DNA of 37,108 nucleotides, taken from NCBI GenBank assembly GCA_944388725.1, contig CALXJW010000003.1:1-37108 (forward strand). Reading direction: 5' to 3'. This stretch comes from an uncultured Clostridia bacterium. GTDB taxonomy: Bacteria > Bacillota > Clostridia > TANB77 > CAG-508. Under the pieces are notes generated by a model. It was not told the DNA's origin. It did no database searches and worked only from the letters and a program-made list of their open reading frames with translations. Shown piece by piece: positions 518-9,216 of this stretch. Position numbers and translations under genes: made by a program. Within the stretch, counting starts at the first letter, position 1. Each line of letters opens with the position of its first letter.

Positions 518-1579
518 TTATTCTTCTTCTCCTTTTAATTTTTCAGCTCTATCTGCCGCTATTAAATTATCAATCATTTCATCTAAATCTCCATTCAAGA
601 AATTTTCCATTTGAAATATACTCATTCCAATTCTGTGATCTGTTATTCTACCTTGAGGATAATTATATGTACGTATCTTTTCACTTCTATCTCCACTACC
701 AACTTGTGTTTTTCTTGCATTTGCTATCTCTGAATCTTGTTTTTCTTTTTCTATATTATATAGTCTTGATCTTAACATTTTCATAGCATATTCTCTATTT
801 TGTAATTGTGAACGTTCTGTTTGGCATTCTACAACAATTCCTGTTGGTTCATGTATAAGTCTTACGGCTGATGAGGTTTTATTAATATGTTGACCACCAG
901 CCCCAGAAGCTCTAAATACTTCCATTTTTATATCAGCTGGATTTATTTCTATTTCTACATCTTCTACTACTGGAAGTACTGCAACCGTAGATGTTGAAGT
1001 ATGTATCCTACCACTACTTTCTGTATCAGGTACTCTTTGTACTCTATGTACTCCACTTTCAAATTTTAATCTACTATATGCACCTTTTCCTGTAACCATA
1101 AAAGATACTTCTTTATATCCACCAAGTTCTGTTTCATTTTCATTTAATATTTCTATTTTCCAATGTTTTCTTTCTGCATACATTGAATACATTCTAAATA
1201 ATGTTCCCGCAAATAATGCTGCTTCTTCTCCCCCAGCTCCTGCACGTATTTCACATATTATATTTTTATCATCATTAGGATCTTTAGGTATTAATAACAT
1301 TTTTAGTTCTTCTTCTATTTGTGGAAGTTTTTCTTTAGCCTCATAATAGTCTATTTCCGCAAGCTCTTTTAATTCTTTATCTTGCATCATTTCTTGGGCA
1401 TCTTCCATTCTTTGTTTTTCTTTTTTGTATTCTCTATATTTTTGTACAACTTCTTCTATTGAACTATGCTCTTTAATTAATTTTTGCCATTCAGCTTGAT
1501 TAGCAATTATTTCGGGATTGCTTATATCCTTTGTTAATTCTTCATATCTTTTTTCTACTGCTTCTAATTTGTCAAACAT
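518..1579 (-). CDS. prfA: Peptide chain release factor 1
   Basis: Class I release factor that recognises UAA/UAG stop codons and triggers peptidyl-tRNA hydrolysis on the ribosome. Visible features are an N-terminal helical domain, the conserved [12 protein letters not shown] segment, the codon-recognition loop with PDT in the context [15 protein letters not shown] (the RF1 PxT type), and the catalytic [15 protein letters not shown] motif with the GGQ tripeptide. The length of 353 aa is normal for RF1. An upstream in-frame ATG at 1588 sits on the ribosome binding site (AAAGGATG). The ATG at 1579 has proper spacing and is preferred. The gene has its own promoter at 1611-1639. prmC, a frequent neighbour, is not in the window. 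Confidence 0.97.
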
Positions 1580-1610
1580 AACTTTCATCCTTTCAATTTA
1601 AACTTTAAAT

Positions 1611-1639
1611 ATTATACTATATATTGGTATTTTTTTCAA
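1611..1639 (-). promoter_or_regulatory. Sigma-A type promoter of prfA
   Basis: On the minus strand, TTGAAA (1634-1639) is separated by 17 bases from a perfect TATAAT (1611-1616), about 30 bases before the prfA start. The left end of the 1649-3891 element lies only 9 bases upstream of the -35 box. Confidence 0.75.
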
Positions 1640-1648
1640 GGGGAATTT

Positions 1649-1850
1649 GGGAACGGTTCATGATAAAAACATGATTTTTTTAATATTAATCGAACAATAT
1701 ACTAATACTAAAGTAATTGCTGGATTATATCTTAAGAATTTTCCACTTTTTTAGCTAATATATTAAATATTATTTCTATTTCTTTTGGAGCATTTAATCC
1801 TATTTAAAATCTTATTTTTTCAAGCTAGATTTATATTTTTCTTTTATTAG
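1649..1850 (-). repeat. Left inverted repeat arm
   Basis: This is the inverse copy of the arm at 3655-3891. Identity is strongest at 1703-1818, with mismatches only at 1720, 1744, 1745 and 1772, and fades inward toward 1850. The outer end is GGGAACGGTTC. On the minus strand it carries a short open frame ending NILAKKVENS and a stop. The arm fills the gap between the prfA promoter and the surface protein gene; no other gene is seen here. Confidence 0.8.
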
Positions 1851-1882
1851 GTTAAGTGTATTTAGTGCAAATTTTTTGATAA

Positions 1883-1930
1883 ATATTGACTTTTTTTTAT
1901 ATTTTTGATTAAATATTATTGTATGATAAA
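1883..1930 (+). promoter_or_regulatory. Candidate promoter of the surface protein gene
   Basis: TATGATAAAAT at about 1922-1932 resembles an extended -10 region and lies about 30 bases before the ATG at 1960. An upstream TTGACT near 1886 is too far away for an ideal 17-base spacer, so the -35 assignment is uncertain. A similar TATGATAAAAT precedes the glycosyltransferase gene at 14221. Confidence 0.4.
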
Positions 1931-1959
1931 ATATAAAATAATAAACAAGGAGAAAACAA

Positions 1960-3561
1960 ATGAAAAAGAAAATAATAGGCATTATAATCGTAATGCTAAT
2001 AATATTTATGTGCAATATGTCAAGTATTTATGCATATAATGAAAATTATAAAGTAAGTGATGATAAAAATCGATATGATGCTATTGCTTATACAAGTAAT
2101 GGTGGTTATGTAGTAGTAGGGAATGCAAGCGATAGAAAATCAGCATATATATCGGTGTATAATTCTGATGGAAAAAAGATAAAAGAAAAAGCATACGGTG
2201 GACAATTTGATTACTTTTATTCAGTTATACAAACAAATGATAATAATTACATTGCAGTAGGACAAAAAAGTTCACGTTATTCTGATGCACTAATTGTGAA
2301 GTTTGATTCGGATTTAAATGTTATTTGGGAAAATAAATATACTAGTTCTAAATATGCAATATTTAACTCAGTTATTGAAACATCGGACGGAAATCTTGTT
2401 GCAGTAGGAACAGCAGATCAAATTAATGGTAATATTGCACCTGCAAAAGGATTAATAGTAAAATATGATAAAAATGGAAATCAATTATGGGCAAATACAA
2501 TTGGTGGCACATCATATGATGTGTTTAGTTCTGTAGTTGAAACTTCAGATAATTGCTATGCCGTAGTAGGAACATTTAAATCGAAAGATTTAGAAAATCT
2601 TGAAATAAAAGATGAAGCAGATGCTGTTATTTTCAAATATAATAATGATGGTGAACTATTATGGAAAAAAACATATGGTGGTAATAGTTATGATGAATTT
2701 AATTCTATAATAAAAACTTCCGATGGTGGATATATTGCTGTTGGTAGTACTGCTTCAAATAATATTGAAGATATTACAGATAGTGCACAATGGAAATGTT
2801 TAATTGTTAAATATGATAAAAATTTTAATTTGTTATGGAATAGAGGGTACGGCTCTGGACATCAATCAGGATTTTTAGATGTTGTAGAATTACAAAATAA
2901 TGACATTATTGCAGTGGGTGAAACATATAGTATTGCTCCAATTCAACATGGAATCATAATACAATATGATTCTAATGGAAATACAATTTCTACTGAAAGT
3001 ACTTCACCAGAAGATAATGTGCAATATAGTTCTATTACTACAGGTGATAATAATTTTATAATTATAGAGACTAATCTTACGACTAACACGAGTAAAGTAA
3101 TAAAATACAGCTATGATATAGAAAATAACGAAGAAATCGCAATTGAAAATATAAGTTTAAATAAAACAGAATTAAATATAACAGAAGGAGATAGTTATAA
3201 TTTAATTGCTACAATTACACCTTCTGAAGCAACAAATAGAACTTTAACTTGGTCAAGCAATAATGAAAATGTCGCTAAAGTTGAAGATGGAAAAGTAACA
3301 GGACTTTCAGAAGGCACAGCAATTATTACTGTTACAACAAAAGATGGGAATTATTCCACAAGCTGTAGAGTAACTGTTTCAAAAAAATTAGATACATCAG
3401 ATGATGTGAAAGGAGATACAGATAAAAAAGACACAACAATATCAACTGAAAAATTGCCACAAACAGGTGTTAGTATAGCACTAAAAATTAGTATTTTTAG
3501 TGTGATAATAATAGCATTATTATGTTATAAAAAATATTATAATTATAGAGATATAAAATAG
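1960..3561 (+). CDS. LPXTG-anchored surface protein with beta-propeller repeats and a Big_2 domain
   Basis: Secreted, wall-anchored protein of unknown ligand. A signal peptide (Lys-rich start, hydrophobic core, SSIYA cleavage region) covers residues 1-25. Residues about 39-375 hold seven repeats of roughly 45-60 residues with the pattern S-V/I-I-x-T-x-D-G/N-x-Y-x-A-V-G followed by I-V-K-Y-D-x-N-G-N-x-L-W. This fits a seven-bladed propeller related to delta-60/PQQ-like repeats. Residues about 388-470 match a bacterial Ig-like (Big_2) domain (LTWSSNNENVAKVEDGKVTG). The C-terminus is a sortase signal: LPQTG at 499-503, a hydrophobic helix, then KKYYNYR. The RBS AAGGAG precedes the ATG. It is the only gene of the inverted-repeat element, which suggests transferred or exchangeable cargo. 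A role in adhesion or glycan binding is inference. Confidence 0.9.
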   Translation: MKKKIIGIIIVMLIIFMCNMSSIYAYNENYKVSDDKNRYDAIAYTSNGGYVVVGNASDRKSAYISVYNSDGKKIKEKAYGGQFDYFYSVIQTNDNNYIAVGQKSSRYSDALIVKFDSDLNVIWENKYTSSKYAIFNSVIETSDGNLVAVGTADQINGNIAPAKGLIVKYDKNGNQLWANTIGGTSYDVFSSVVETSDNCYAVVGTFKSKDLENLEIKDEADAVIFKYNNDGELLWKKTYGGNSYDEFNSIIKTSDGGYIAVGSTASNNIEDITDSAQWKCLIVKYDKNFNLLWNRGYGSGHQSGFLDVVELQNNDIIAVGETYSIAPIQHGIIIQYDSNGNTISTESTSPEDNVQYSSITTGDNNFIIIETNLTTNTSKVIKYSYDIENNEEIAIENISLNKTELNITEGDSYNLIATITPSEATNRTLTWSSNNENVAKVEDGKVTGLSEGTAIITVTTKDGNYSTSCRVTVSKKLDTSDDVKGDTDKKDTTISTEKLPQTGVSIALKISIFSVIIIALLCYKKYYNYRDIK

Positions 3562-3588
3562 GAGAAGGACATGAAGTCTTTCTTCTAT
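3558..3588 (+). terminator. Terminator of the surface protein gene
   Basis: Arms 3558-3570 and 3576-3588 pair over 13 bases with two G-U pairs around a 5-base loop. The structure overlaps the stop codon and is followed by a T-rich stretch. Confidence 0.55.
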
Positions 3589-3654
3589 TTATATGTTCGG
3601 TTCCTAATAAAATAATTTAAAAGGTGCATAATTAAAATTTATGATATAATGTTA

Positions 3655-3891
3655 GGCTAATCAAAATTTAATTATAGATGTATCTTGAAGAAAATAAGAT
3701 TTTAAATAGGATTAAATGCTCCAAAAGAAATAGAAAGAATATTTAATATATTAGCTAAAAAAGACGAAAATTCTTAAGATATAATCCAACAATTACTTTA
3801 GTATTATATATTGGTTGATTAGTATTAAATAATCATGTTTTTATCACAAGTAACGGTTCCTCTTTTGTATATAAAAAAGAGAACCGTTCTC
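3655..3891 (+). repeat. Right inverted repeat arm
   Basis: This is the inverse copy of the left arm. The core at 3691-3806 is nearly identical to 1818-1703. The outer end differs from the left arm by an extra hairpin. AACGGTTC at 3852-3859 pairs with GAACCGTT at 3881-3888 through an A/T-rich stem, giving a palindromic terminus. It contains a short frame ending NILAKKDENS and a stop at about 3777. The gap between the surface gene and yhaN holds only the terminator above, this arm and a GTTCGGTTCC motif near 3595. Confidence 0.8.
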
Positions 3892-3903
3892 GAATTTAAC
3901 ATT

Positions 3904-5856
3904 TTATATTTTTATAAGATTAAATTTAATTTTTTCTTTATTTAGAATTTCTTCTTCCCTTTGGGTACAAGTTAATATGATTATTTGTCTATCATCATAT
4001 TCTGAACTTAGATATTTTAAAATATTTTCTAATCTATTAGTATCAAAATAAGCAAAAGCTTCGTCTAAAATTATAGGAACTTTTTCGTTCGATATTTCAT
4101 CTAACATTGCCAATCTTAAAGATAAATATAATTGATCTATTGTTCCTATACTTAATCTCTCTGCCGATACATAATTTCCATCATTTAATTCTACTGTTAA
4201 ACCTTTTTCATCGTTAAAAAATAAATTATTGTATTTTCCATTTGTAATCTTAGAGATATTTTGTGATAATTTTTTTGTAAAAATAGGACTAACATTATTT
4301 TTCATTTTTTCATAAGCTCTTTCTAATAATTTCTTTGTAAGTTCAATACTATTATTCATTTTTTGTAGATTTTCATATTGTTCTTTTAATGAAATTAATT
4401 CTTCTTCTATTTTAGCTAAATCTTCTAATTGAGGTTCAATATTTTCTTTTCTTAAATCTAATTTGTTTATTTCAATTTTATCATTATTTATTTTATTTTC
4501 TATAAAATAAATTTCATCTTCTATTTTATTCAAATTAAATGAATAATTTATTTCATTTTTTTCAATTTTATTTGAATATTTATTTATTAATTTTTCTCTT
4601 TCTAAATTATTTTCAAAATCATTTTTTATTTTTATTTTATTTATTTCATTTAAAATTTCCTGAGAATTTTTTTCTATTATTTTTTCTTCGTTTTCCAAAT
4701 TATTTTTTTCTAAATTTATCTTTTCTTTTTCAATATTATAATTTTTTTCAATGTTTTTTATTTTTTTATTTAATTTATTTTTCAAAAATATTGAACAAAT
4801 TAAAAACATTGGTACTGTAAGAAGAAAAATATATTTAATTAATTTACTTTCTGTTGTTTTTGGAATAAATATTAGCCACAAAATATTAAGTAATAAAATT
4901 ATTGTTCCTATTATTTTTATTTTTTTGTTTAATTTATTTTTTTCATTTTTATTATCAAATTTATTTTTAAAATTGTTTTTTTCATTAATTTTTTCTTCAA
5001 CTGTTTTAATTTTATTTTTTATTTCAGTTATTTTATTTTTATTTTCTTCAATTATTTTTTCTTTTATTTTTATTTTTTCGTTTTCCAAATTATTTTTTTC
5101 TTTTATTTTTTTTATTTCTTTTAATAATTCATTTTTTGTTTTATTTTTTTCCAAATTATTTTTTATTTCATTTTTATTGTTTTCAATTTCGTATTTTAAT
5201 TTATCATATTTTTTTAATTCGATAATTTTTTCTTCATTTTTTTCTATATTTTTTCTAATTATATTTATTGGTTTTTCCCTACTTCTTTCTGTTCCAATTT
5301 CATCCAATTGTTTTTTATTAAGTTTCTCCATTGCTTTTTTATACGAAATACTATCCTCGCCTGTCCCTAAGAGATTAGATATTTTTTGTATAAGGAGATT
5401 TTGCGTATCTCTTCCAATTTTTACCTCTTGTTGCATGGCAATTGATGTTGCTAAAAACATTTCTTCTGTTATCTGTGTTTGCTCATAAAAAAATTCACTT
5501 CCCTTATTTTTATCAATATTAAATTCTTTTGTTATTTCTTCCCCATTTTGATTAAATATTTTTGGATTTTTTTTATTAAATTGTCTAAATATTTCATATT
5601 TATTTTTATTATCTAATTCATATATTAATTTCCCTGAAAATTCTTCACTTTCCCATGGTTTATATTTTTCAAAATCAGATATATCTCTTCCTTTTTTATT
5701 TTTTGATGTTCCATATAATATATTTAATATGAATTTTAACAATGTCGATTTTCCACTTTCATTTTCTCCATAAATTATATTTATATTATTTGTTAAATTT
5801 ATTTCTTTATTTTTTAGCTTCCCATATGCATTTACTTTAATTGAGTTAATTTTCAA
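3904..5856 (-). CDS. yhaN: YhaN-like SMC/Rad50-type ATPase with membrane hairpin
   Basis: Partner of YhaO in a SbcCD/Mre11-Rad50-like complex, probably acting on DNA ends. Near the N-terminus is Walker A (YGENESGKSTLL). A long coiled coil, extremely rich in Lys, Glu, Asn and Ile, follows from about residue 170 to 520. Near the C-terminus are the signature-like RLSIGTIDQLYLSLRLAML and Walker B IILDEAFAYFDTNR. In place of a Rad50 CxxC zinc hook, the middle of the coil holds two adjacent hydrophobic helices (about residues 315-360), which suggests membrane attachment. The first in-frame GTG (5865) abuts AAGGAG, so the TTG at 5856, eight bases after the SD, is preferred. It starts 5 bases past the end of yhaO, so the two are translationally close. 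Confidence 0.85.
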   Translation of the reverse strand: MKINSIKVNAYGKLKNKEINLTNNINIIYGENESGKSTLLKFILNILYGTSKNKKGRDISDFEKYKPWESEEFSGKLIYELDNKNKYEIFRQFNKKNPKIFNQNGEEITKEFNIDKNKGSEFFYEQTQITEEMFLATSIAMQQEVKIGRDTQNLLIQKISNLLGTGEDSISYKKAMEKLNKKQLDEIGTERSREKPINIIRKNIEKNEEKIIELKKYDKLKYEIENNKNEIKNNLEKNKTKNELLKEIKKIKEKNNLENEKIKIKEKIIEENKNKITEIKNKIKTVEEKINEKNNFKNKFDNKNEKNKLNKKIKIIGTIILLLNILWLIFIPKTTESKLIKYIFLLTVPMFLICSIFLKNKLNKKIKNIEKNYNIEKEKINLEKNNLENEEKIIEKNSQEILNEINKIKIKNDFENNLEREKLINKYSNKIEKNEINYSFNLNKIEDEIYFIENKINNDKIEINKLDLRKENIEPQLEDLAKIEEELISLKEQYENLQKMNNSIELTKKLLERAYEKMKNNVSPIFTKKLSQNISKITNGKYNNLFFNDEKGLTVELNDGNYVSAERLSIGTIDQLYLSLRLAMLDEISNEKVPIILDEAFAYFDTNRLENILKYLSSEYDDRQIIILTCTQREEEILNKEKIKFNLIKI

Positions 5857-5861
5857 AAATA

Positions 5862-6938
5862 TCACTCCTTATCTAATATTTCCATGCCAATTTCTAATGC
5901 TTTTTCTATTGTTTGTTCATCATAATTTAGTTTTTTCATTTCTTCTATTACTTCTTTTACAAATAATCCTTTTAATGTATTTTCTTTTGAAATTTTTTCT
6001 ACATCATAATTTGGTTTTGTTTGGTCTTTTATTTTTATTATTTTTTGGTTTAGTTCATATTTATATAAATCATAAATATTTATTTCAAAATTTCTTTTTC
6101 CAGATAAAATTATTTTATATAATTTATTTTCTGCTAATTCTATTTCATTTATTTTTTCTATTAGTTGTTCCACAGAATTTATTTCTGTACATTTTAATTC
6201 TGCTTCTACAAATTTTGTTTCATCTAATTCAATAAATTCTAATTCATTTTTATCTTTTTTTATTTCTCCTGTTATCATTCCGTGTTTACCAAGTTCATCA
6301 AATCCTAAAGATATAGTAGAACCTGGATATATTATTTTTCCATTTGGTATAAAATTATTTTTATGTATATGCCCTAGTGCAACATAGTCAAACCCTATTT
6401 TTTGTAATTGAGCACTACTTATTGGATTATAATCTTTTAAATCTGTTAAACAAGCATCTAATGTACCATGTACTAGAAATATATTTATTTTTTCTTTATT
6501 TTCTATTTTTATTTCTTCGAGATTCATTTTTGAGCAATAAAAATCATCAAATCCAAATCCATATATATTTACTTCTTCCAACTCCACTTTATCTATTTTA
6601 GATTTAAATATATAAACATTTTTATTCCAATTATAATTACAGTAATATGAATTTTTTAAATATGGATCATGATTTCCTGGTGATATAAATATTTTTGTAT
6701 TCTCTATCTCTTTAAATAAATTATTTATATATTCTATTGTAGATTGTCTTATGTATTGTTGATCGTATAAATCTCCTGATATAAACAAAAATTCTATATC
6801 ATTTTCTTTTATATAATTAATTACTTTTTTAAATATTTTTCTTTGTTCTAATCTTCTTTTTTCTCCTAAATTTCCTTTATCTGATAGTGTAGTAAATGGT
6901 GTATCAAAATGTATATCTGCTATATGTACAAATTTCAT
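5862..6938 (-). CDS. yhaO: YhaO-like metallophosphoesterase (SbcD/Mre11 family)
   Basis: Calcineurin-like phosphoesterase expected to be the nuclease subunit paired with YhaN. The metal-binding motifs of the family are visible in order: HIADIHFDTPF near the N-terminus, ISGDLYDQQY, SPGNHDPY, LVHGT and ALGHIHKNN. These supply the Asp, His and Asn ligands of the two-metal site. The length of 358 aa is close to known YhaO/SbcD proteins. The ATG is preceded by GGGAG. Its last codons carry the ribosome binding site of yhaN, which indicates one transcript. A promoter candidate lies at 6995-7023. Confidence 0.92.
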   Translation of the reverse strand: MKFVHIADIHFDTPFTTLSDKGNLGEKRRLEQRKIFKKVINYIKENDIEFLFISGDLYDQQYIRQSTIEYINNLFKEIENTKIFISPGNHDPYLKNSYYCNYNWNKNVYIFKSKIDKVELEEVNIYGFGFDDFYCSKMNLEEIKIENKEKINIFLVHGTLDACLTDLKDYNPISSAQLQKIGFDYVALGHIHKNNFIPNGKIIYPGSTISLGFDELGKHGMITGEIKKDKNELEFIELDETKFVEAELKCTEINSVEQLIEKINEIELAENKLYKIILSGKRNFEINIYDLYKYELNQKIIKIKDQTKPNYDVEKISKENTLKGLFVKEVIEEMKKLNYDEQTIEKALEIGMEILDKE

Positions 6939-7156: not shown

Positions 7157-9196
7157 TTATTCATCATCTATAGGTCCAAACAATTCATCAAATTTTGCTT
7201 CCAATTCTTTTTGCAAATCATATGTATCTTCTTCTTCCTCAACTTGAGGAGTTACCTTTTTGCTTTCTTTTTCTACTGAAGTATTATCTTCAAATAAATC
7301 ATCTATAGATTGTATTTCTTCAGATTGTTTTGATTCTATATTCTGTTTTACTTCATTGTTTTCTTTTTTTTCTTCTTTTGATGGTGTATCATCTTCAAAT
7401 AAATCATCTAAGGATTCAACCTTTAAATTTTCTCTTTGTTTATCATTATTGTCTTCTGTCCATGGATTATATGGATTAAATTTTCTCCAATTTCCTCTTC
7501 GGATCTCTCCTATATCATTATGACTTATTTCTACTTTCGCTAAGTCATTAGACATCTTTTTATGTTTAAAATAATAAAATTTATTTGCTTTTACAGGTTT
7601 TATACCCTTTTCAAATATTATACATAAGTCATTATCCATTCTCCTAAGTTCATCAGGTGTCATTAATGCTCTTGCCATTACCTGGTCTGATGTACTTTGT
7701 CCTGTTTTAAAATATTTTCTATCCCTATTTATTGATATACTATCTCTTTCTATTGTTTTTTCACCTAATGCTTTTGAAAAATATTCTACTGTTTTATATG
7801 AGTTACTACCCAAAAATACATGTGTATCACAGTTACCTATGATTGTTTCATAAGATTTTTCATAAACAGCTTCTAATTGATCTAAGTTTTGTAATATTAC
7901 ACTAAATGATATCTTCCTACTTCTTGATGTTGATATTTTTTTATCAAAATCAGGGATTTTTCCTATATTAGCAAACTCATCTAATATAAAATATGTTGGT
8001 ACTTTTAATTTTCCACCATTTCGATCAGCAAAGTCATACAATTGTTGTATCATTTGTGAGAAAAATATTGTTAATAAAAAGTCATATGCTGTATGTGTGT
8101 CTGAAGATATAACATATACTGCTGTTTTTTTACTACCTATTTCTTCAAAATTTATTGTGTCTGTTGATGTTAGTTCTGCAATTTCTTTAGAGTCAAATTT
8201 TCCTAATTTTGATTGTAAAGTACTTAATATAGAACTATATGTTTTCTCTGGCGCTATTTCTATTGACTTATAATTCATTCTTGCTGGATGGTCATATGGT
8301 AATTTACTTATTAATTCTGTTAATAAATTGCTTCCTCCATTAGAATTTGCTGCTCTTACTAGTTCTGCACAACTTGCTAAGTTTTGTTCTTCTTCCGGTC
8401 TTGTTGCCATTAAATAATATATTAATGCTTTTAATAACATTTCTGCAGAGTCATCCCAAAATGGTTCCGCAGTAGATCCTTCTGTTTTTTGTCCTTTTAC
8501 TATGGTATTTGCAATAACATCTACATCTATCTCTGATGCAATATGCATTAATGGGTTATACCCATCACTATATTGTGGTCTAACTAAATTTAACACCTTA
8601 ATATCATATCCATTTGCTTTTAAATATCCAGCAGTTCTATCATATAGCTCTCCCTTTGGGTCTGTAAAAACATATGACCCTAATAATTGGTATGCATTTG
8701 GTATTGAGTATGATGCTGATTTACCAGAACCTGAACCTCCGACTACTAACACATTGACGTTTCCTCTTTTATCTACTGGTAAATAATTATCTTCCGCTAA
8801 TATTATTCCTTTTTTATTACTTAATATTTGATATTGCTCTCCATTTTTGCTCCAATCACTTGATCCATGTTCAAAATCTGTATATTCATTTTTAGGAGCA
8901 GACCTTGCAACTCCTACTATAAAAAATATTGCATAAATTATTGAAAATATTGCTAAATTTTTTATATATAATGACATATAACTTCTATTTACTAACTCTG
9001 CAAATCCTTTAGCAGGATTCGTTATAGTAGTTGTAAATATTTTTATGCCTTCTTCAAAGTTTTTCTGATCAGTTGCAACATTAAATCCTAAAGTTATAGG
9101 CACGATTAATACTATGGCTATAAATAACCATAGTATTCCAAATAATATAAAATATTTTTTATTTCTTCTTAAAGCTCCTTCTACTTTATAGTTCAT
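7157..9196 (-). CDS. VirD4/TraG-type type IV coupling ATPase (orphan)
   Basis: Membrane-anchored hexameric ATPase family that delivers DNA or protein to a type IV secretion channel. Two N-terminal transmembrane helices (about residues 13-35 and 75-95) precede the nucleotide-binding domain with Walker A VVGGSGSGKSASYS (near 150), VFTDPKGELYDRT, and Walker B YFILDEFANIGKIPDF (near 400). The last 110 residues are acidic and repeat the core D-D-L-F-E (see finding). A GTG at 9205 lies in the SD; the ATG at 9196 follows AAGGTG at proper spacing and is chosen, giving 679 aa. It resembles the Clostridial conjugative transposon VirD4 proteins, but no relaxase, VirB4 or integrase lies nearby. It is cotranscribed with the two small genes upstream, at an 18-20 base spacing. 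Confidence 0.9.
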   Translation of the reverse strand: MNYKVEGALRRNKKYFILFGILWLFIAIVLIVPITLGFNVATDQKNFEEGIKIFTTTITNPAKGFAELVNRSYMSLYIKNLAIFSIIYAIFFIVGVARSAPKNEYTDFEHGSSDWSKNGEQYQILSNKKGIILAEDNYLPVDKRGNVNVLVVGGSGSGKSASYSIPNAYQLLGSYVFTDPKGELYDRTAGYLKANGYDIKVLNLVRPQYSDGYNPLMHIASEIDVDVIANTIVKGQKTEGSTAEPFWDDSAEMLLKALIYYLMATRPEEEQNLASCAELVRAANSNGGSNLLTELISKLPYDHPARMNYKSIEIAPEKTYSSILSTLQSKLGKFDSKEIAELTSTDTINFEEIGSKKTAVYVISSDTHTAYDFLLTIFFSQMIQQLYDFADRNGGKLKVPTYFILDEFANIGKIPDFDKKISTSRSRKISFSVILQNLDQLEAVYEKSYETIIGNCDTHVFLGSNSYKTVEYFSKALGEKTIERDSISINRDRKYFKTGQSTSDQVMARALMTPDELRRMDNDLCIIFEKGIKPVKANKFYYFKHKKMSNDLAKVEISHNDIGEIRRGNWRKFNPYNPWTEDNNDKQRENLKVESLDDLFEDDTPSKEEKKENNEVKQNIESKQSEEIQSIDDLFEDNTSVEKESKKVTPQVEEEEDTYDLQKELEAKFDELFGPIDDE

Positions 9197-9216
9197 ATGT
9201 ATCACCTTCTCTTTTG

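Follow-up and report, generated by a model that had tools for sequence, protein, structure and literature searches.

A probable decayed composite-type transposon with outward ISAs1-family right ends around a predicted LPXTG beta-propeller gene in an uncultured Clostridia bacterium

Introduction

Two of the described systems closest to the locus reported here are the mobile insertion cassette, in which the left and right ends of one insertion sequence (IS) lie around a passenger gene, and the ISAs1 family of ISs, which has CAGG-type ends and duplicates 8 to 10 bp of its target. Composite transposons, in turn, are arranged as IS-gene-IS (available text of PMC3281130). Within the ISAs1 family, ISArsp11 is described with CAGGG ends and a 10-bp repeat (available text of PMC6305408). 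IS1397, ISPsy8, and ISPpu9/10 insert into repetitive extragenic palindromes, as set out in the available part of PMC1525189.

The present locus lies in a 37,108-nucleotide stretch of DNA from an uncultured Clostridia bacterium, the whole of which is here called the window. The locus resembles a composite transposon in having IS sequence on both sides of a passenger gene and a putative target duplication beyond the outer ends; its IS sequences are inverted, with like-type ends outward. Unlike in a composite transposon, the ISs are only 3' stubs with altered tips, and a transposase is absent. With mobile insertion cassettes (MIC231 and others, as far as the available text of PMC3913671 describes them), the locus shares IS-related terminal inverted repeats, a passenger gene, the absence of a transposase, and a target duplication; however, it has two right (3') ends with coding remnants and no left end. 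A transposase C terminus encoded in its arms likens it to ISAs1 insertion sequences, which in relatives have CAGG ends and 9-bp duplications, although it is not itself an IS; a left end and a functional transposase are absent. Finally, as for the palindrome-inserting elements in the available part of PMC1525189, the unit apparently landed in one member of a dispersed palindrome family. In contrast to those elements, this is a single case, and the duplications of ISAs1 copies in relatives are unrelated, so a target preference is not supported.

Results

Inverted arms. The original prediction, made from the window alone, placed a surface-protein gene between long inverted arms. These arms are real: positions 1703 to 1818 and 3691 to 3806 form an inverted pair of 116 nt that is 97% complementary. 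With the runner-up pair in the first 8 kb spanning 57 nt at 70%, the arms are the longest by a wide margin. Searching for them in relatives, as had been proposed, traced their source to an ISAs1-family IS present in congeners. The left arm (1659 to 1880) matches the 3' end of an ISAs1 transposase gene and the right tip in one congener (G076) at 88%, while the right arm (3673 to 3845) matches the identical IS 3' end at 84% (blastn alignments of 223 and 174 columns, respectively). The G076 match consists of the end of the transposase gene (NF033564, E value of 4.5e-67; PF13808, E value of 1.6e-19) and the adjoining terminal repeat, the start of the gene being cut by a contig edge. Fragments of transposase peptide are still legible in both arms (Table 1). 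Judging from these alignments, both arms are ISAs1-family 3' ends, comprising transposase C terminus and terminal repeat, in opposite orientation with their right ends outward.

In the core columns, the left and right arms are equal at 112/117 positions, compared with 100/117 and 99/117 between the arms and G076, and both arms have a stop codon at a position where G076 encodes glutamine. The shared columns and stop codon point to a single IS lineage as the source of both arms. The left arm agrees, in the outermost columns, with G076 at 42/44 positions and with the right arm at 36/45. The IS sequence left in the unit amounts to 3' stubs of ∼220 bp and ∼175 bp; two complete IS copies are absent. 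A search of the same genome's assembly, which is 91% complete, turned up no ISAs1 transposase. Because this incomplete assembly yields no ISAs1 transposase and both tips are altered, the unit is probably immobile today.

Table 1. Positions of the unit, its parts, and its neighbors in the window
Feature	Positions	Strand	Basis or remark
prfA, flanking gene	518..1588	-	promoter-like TTGAAA-17-TATAAT (1639-1611) unbroken
Interrupted host palindrome, left part GAATTTGGGAACGGTTC	1643..1659	.	joined with 3860-3897, gives a hairpin like the dispersed family
AACGGTTC, left copy	1652..1659	+	candidate target duplication; its final base is possibly the terminal C of the element
Left arm, ISAs1-family IS 3' end, tip CATGATAAAAACATGA	1659..1880	-	frameshifted transposase C-terminal codons, then right terminal repeat
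Residual transposase codons, ...KKFALNTLNLIKEKYKSSLKK	1812..1880	-	readable peptide
Cargo, 533-aa predicted secreted protein: beta-propeller, Big_2 domain, LPQTG sorting signal	1960..3561	+	ORF, profiles, model
Right arm, 3' end of the left arm's IS lineage	3673..3849	+	tip degenerate: GTTTTTATCACAA instead of GTTTTTATCCTG
AACGGTTC, right copy	3852..3859	+	candidate target duplication
Host palindrome, remainder	3852..3897	.	folds on its own
SbcC/Rad50-like ATPase gene, other flanking gene	3904..5865	-	profile matches

ISAs1 elements in related genomes. With the genome under study included in each count, a query from the right-arm region had matches in 4/97 genus genomes, and the left-arm query had matches in 5/210 genus genomes and in 7/390 sampled family genomes. 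Among the family matches, those in G093 and G214 are clear. Those in G254, G324, G351, and G460 were rejected as weak; the IS tip pattern is absent from them, and only G254 shows transposase similarity. Of the 210 genus genomes, four besides this one hold single arms, some of which sit at contig edges. Outward arms as a pair turned up solely in the genome under study, among 210 genus and 390 family genomes in which two to three candidates were scored per genome and pairs at contig edges were unreadable. Within the same scope, other cargo between like arms, a possibility raised by the original prediction, did not appear.

A structurally complete relative in G102 is 1,421 bp long, with its frame broken by one stop; its ends are CAGGATAAAAACATGA and CAGGATAAAGACATGA, with a 9-bp duplication. 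Five further distinct ISAs1 elements, obtained from the 6/23 ISAs1 loci where our script could define ends, have a 9-bp duplication each. The ISAs1 relatives have CAGG ends and 9-bp target duplications. In G016, an IS right end shares ∼90% identity with the arms. Contig edges in this genome hold four right and two left IS ends, and its assembly gave no transposase match. Two of the right ends pair with the two left ends, located on separate contigs, by sharing a 9-bp flank (CTTGCCATG in one pair, TAATTTTCA in the other) and therefore look like ordinary single insertions; the remaining two right ends are without a partner. G016 suggests that IS bodies can drop out of assemblies while their ends stay. 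Separately, the right end of the arms' IS is found at a contig edge in G214 (L173), a member of another genus of the family, where it equals the G016 copy in 43/43 tip columns and 71/73 further columns. This likeness suggests that the IS may have moved between genera recently.

Boundaries and direct repeat. The unit extends from ∼1659 to 3849, with copies of an 8-bp direct repeat (AACGGTTC) on both sides. At equal tolerance, an exact 8-bp repeat turned up in 351 of 200,000 trials with position pairs drawn at random from the window. If the IS boundary is set exactly as in the relatives, a 9-bp repeat agrees at 8/9 positions, and the exact 8-bp repeat lies one base over. The tips in the window are CATG on the left and a degenerate sequence on the right, compared with the CAGG ends of relatives. 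The outer ends carry a duplication near the IS's own size, that is, 8 bp exact versus 9 bp in relatives. AACGGTTC, which adjoins the IS tips on the outside, is a better candidate for the target duplication than GAATTT, which the original prediction had proposed.

Target palindrome. When the unit and one repeat are removed, the joined flanks fold as a 24-pair hairpin of -30.0 kcal/mol; the lowest value among 500 random joints was -17.9 kcal/mol. The occupied right side alone (3840 to 3905) forms 16 pairs at -16.7 kcal/mol. GGGAACGGTTC at 1649 to 1659 has a one-mismatch partner at 3881 to 3891 on the minus strand (2 matches versus 0.01 expected). Across the same genome, the pattern GAACGGTTCYTCTTTT with up to three mismatches has 106 matches, compared with 60 for the reversed control. 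In 20 short stretches picked from the listed pattern sites, mostly those listed as facing pairs, the exact core is present in both arms in 19 and in one arm in 1. The common form of the dispersed palindrome is approximately AAATTTGGGGACGGTTCTCTTTTT...AAAAAGAGAACCGTCCCCAAATTT, with AAATTT as the outer stem. By this comparison, the joined site in the window belongs, in diverged form, to a palindrome family scattered through its own genome.

Because the joined flanks fold as the dispersed palindrome does, GGGAACGGTTC/GAACCGTTCTC and GAATTT make up both sides of the target hairpin. On this ground, and given the AAATTT outer stem, we rejected the earlier assignment of GGGAACGGTTC/GAACCGTTCTC as element termini flanked by a GAATTT duplication. 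They are the outer halves of a single pre-existing palindrome, with the IS-derived ends lying inside, at ∼1659 and 3849. REP/RAYT-type mobilization of the unit, which the palindromes bring to mind, was set aside as a hypothetical route. A preference of the IS for the palindrome as a target was also rejected because the duplications at defined-end ISAs1 copies in relatives are unrelated. A terminator scan found none, although the hairpin folds well. Elsewhere in this genome (e.g., L193 to L212), the dispersed palindrome is nearly perfect and roughly 50 to 70 bases long; the copies at L198 and L212 have matched changes in both arms, from CTC/GAG to CTG/CAG.

Flanking genes and the locus in relatives. 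The tail of the SbcC-like gene was found in 75/97 genus genomes, the one under study included, and the best 30 of these 75 loci were examined, 29 of them from relatives. prfA is present in 21/29 relatives' loci, the other 8 being without prfA in the examined stretch. In 15/29 relatives, 68 to 428 nt lie between the SbcC-like gene and prfA (aligned ends), and the unit is absent; in 6/29, one gene lies between the two. The IS tip and the palindrome core were absent by pattern from all 21 relatives' loci with prfA, and among the 30 loci the cargo matched its own locus only. The dispersed palindrome, as far as such patterns tell, is particular to this lineage among the loci compared. The SbcC tail of relatives is at most 76% identical to that in the window, which marks them as other species and not strains of the same species. 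Unit-free SbcC-prfA loci, the empty sites anticipated by the original prediction, therefore exist but in other species only; the place is commonly free, and a same-species empty allele is not among them.

The promoter-like site of prfA agrees at 11/12 positions and lies 20 bases past the insertion; across the region, sites of this kind occur at background level. Six relatives' loci (L045, L046, L050, L054, L057, and L061) have at the unit's place a gene of ∼340 codons that looks membrane-protein-like by eye. A gene for a TraG/VirD4-type conjugative coupling protein (7157 to 9205 of the window, minus strand; PF02534, E value of 5.9e-86) is close to the genes for a DnaJ-type protein and the SbcC-like ATPase and to prfA.

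Cargo gene. The single ORF between the arms encodes 533 amino acids, with a signal peptide and, at the C-terminal end, an LPQTG-type sorting signal, both read by eye. The same genome has five sortase matches, all above the Pfam cutoff. The cargo has a Big_2 domain match (E value of 9.4e-15), and propeller profiles score under their curated cutoffs (NF047494, 47.1 of 400 bits; TIGR02608, 27.2 of 76.5). A single-sequence AlphaFold2 model (mean pLDDT of 69.9; pTM of 0.65; residues 388 to 431 and 475 to 509 low) has ∼28 strands within residues 27 to 384. PDB matches of the model were headed by CylK (3.4e-19), followed by NHL, WD40, and lectin propellers, and we take all of these best matches to be propellers. 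The model supports a predicted beta-propeller formed by residues 27 to 384. That one LPXTG propeller gene lies between the arms, as originally predicted, thus agrees with the ORF, the sorting signal, the Big_2 match, and the structural matches.

Full-length relatives of the cargo were not found in 97 genus genomes (E values up to 1e-20) or, using the first 390 residues, in 390 family genomes (E values up to 1e-15). Matches in 9/97 genus relatives (E values up to 1e-20) are all confined to residues 371 to 533. The first 390 residues gave repeat-level matches in 26/390 family relatives, in open frames of 517 to 7,428 codons. Searched against genome contigs, the cargo had one match, at 28%; against viral contigs, it had none. 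Plasmid matches comprised 34 records, all at <60% identity and none covering 80%. An IS-supplied promoter was considered and rejected, as promoter-like sites in positions 1500 to 4000 are at background (24 found versus 21.5 expected).

Discussion

We consider it likely that a composite-type transposon, bounded by two ISAs1 right ends that face outward, brought the LPXTG beta-propeller gene to this site and then decayed. Such a transposon, after losing its IS bodies, would be expected to show what is seen here: outward right ends on either side of a passenger and a duplication near the size typical of the IS. Two inverted IS copies with their right (3') ends outward would have bracketed the gene, and transposase from a then-intact copy would have acted on both outer right ends. 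The whole block would then have entered a dispersed palindrome situated between prfA and the SbcC-like gene, landing in one of its arms with duplication of ∼8 to 9 bp, and later loss of the IS bodies would have left the present stubs. Since only one genome was found to hold the unit, we infer from a single site that it moved as one block by an ISAs1 transposase, that the IS copies were once full, and that the events followed this order. Against the composite reading stand the absence of a complete IS from the unit, the failure to find an ISAs1 transposase in the 91%-complete assembly, the degenerate right tip, the restriction to a single site, the fact that unit-free sites come from other species, and the outer columns of the left arm, which are nearer to G076. 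The broader claim of the original prediction, a transposon-like unit that lacks a transposase and carries a surface-protein gene, is borne out by arms that correspond to IS ends and by unit-free sites in relatives.

The unit might instead resemble a mobile insertion cassette, consisting of two IS ends around a passenger, without ever having held two full IS copies, and mobilized by a resident ISAs1 transposase acting in trans. It is without a transposase and has only terminal IS sequence on both sides, and published cassettes, in the available text of PMC3913671, are inverted repeats around a transposase-less gene, usually with a target duplication. We regard this origin as unlikely, however, since both arms are the right end and carry transposase-coding remnants, and a second copy of the unit was not seen in 210 genus genomes (two to three candidates scored per genome; some ends at contig edges). 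The closer agreement of the arms with each other than with G076 and their common stop codon make a local duplication possible. Separate events, in which one IS end was duplicated in inverted orientation or two insertions occurred independently around a pre-existing gene, with the repeat partly a by-product of the palindrome, would fit this agreement and the single site. Such a history is nonetheless quite improbable: the AACGGTTC copies form a direct repeat where a palindrome would give inverted copies, the hairpin grows from 16 to 24 pairs once the unit and one repeat are taken out, and the cargo was not found in the loci of 29 relatives.

The original prediction also offered inversion of the gene by recombination between the arms; read further, this would be an invertible switch for phase variation. 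The length and identity of the inverted arms and the surface-protein cargo speak for such a switch, but a recombinase gene is absent from the unit, and identity to IS ends already explains the arms. Moreover, the start codon and upstream region lie within the segment that the arms enclose, and it is not obvious that inverting this segment would part the gene from a promoter; we find this reading extremely hard to credit.

Read as a decayed composite-type transposon, the locus is a readable case, in a small-genome lineage, in which an IS-built transposon apparently delivered a surface-protein gene and the landing site can still be recognized as a broken palindrome of the genomic family. A further lesson is that a pre-existing palindrome can pass for element termini. 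The unit seems to be an old, mostly explained instance of an already-known route of gene mobility. That, in these small-genome bacteria, ISAs1-type right ends repeatedly pick up genes for surface proteins and carry them to dispersed palindromes is, in our estimation, very unlikely; if true, such recurrent carriage would be a route to swap surface antigens while leaving genes undisrupted.
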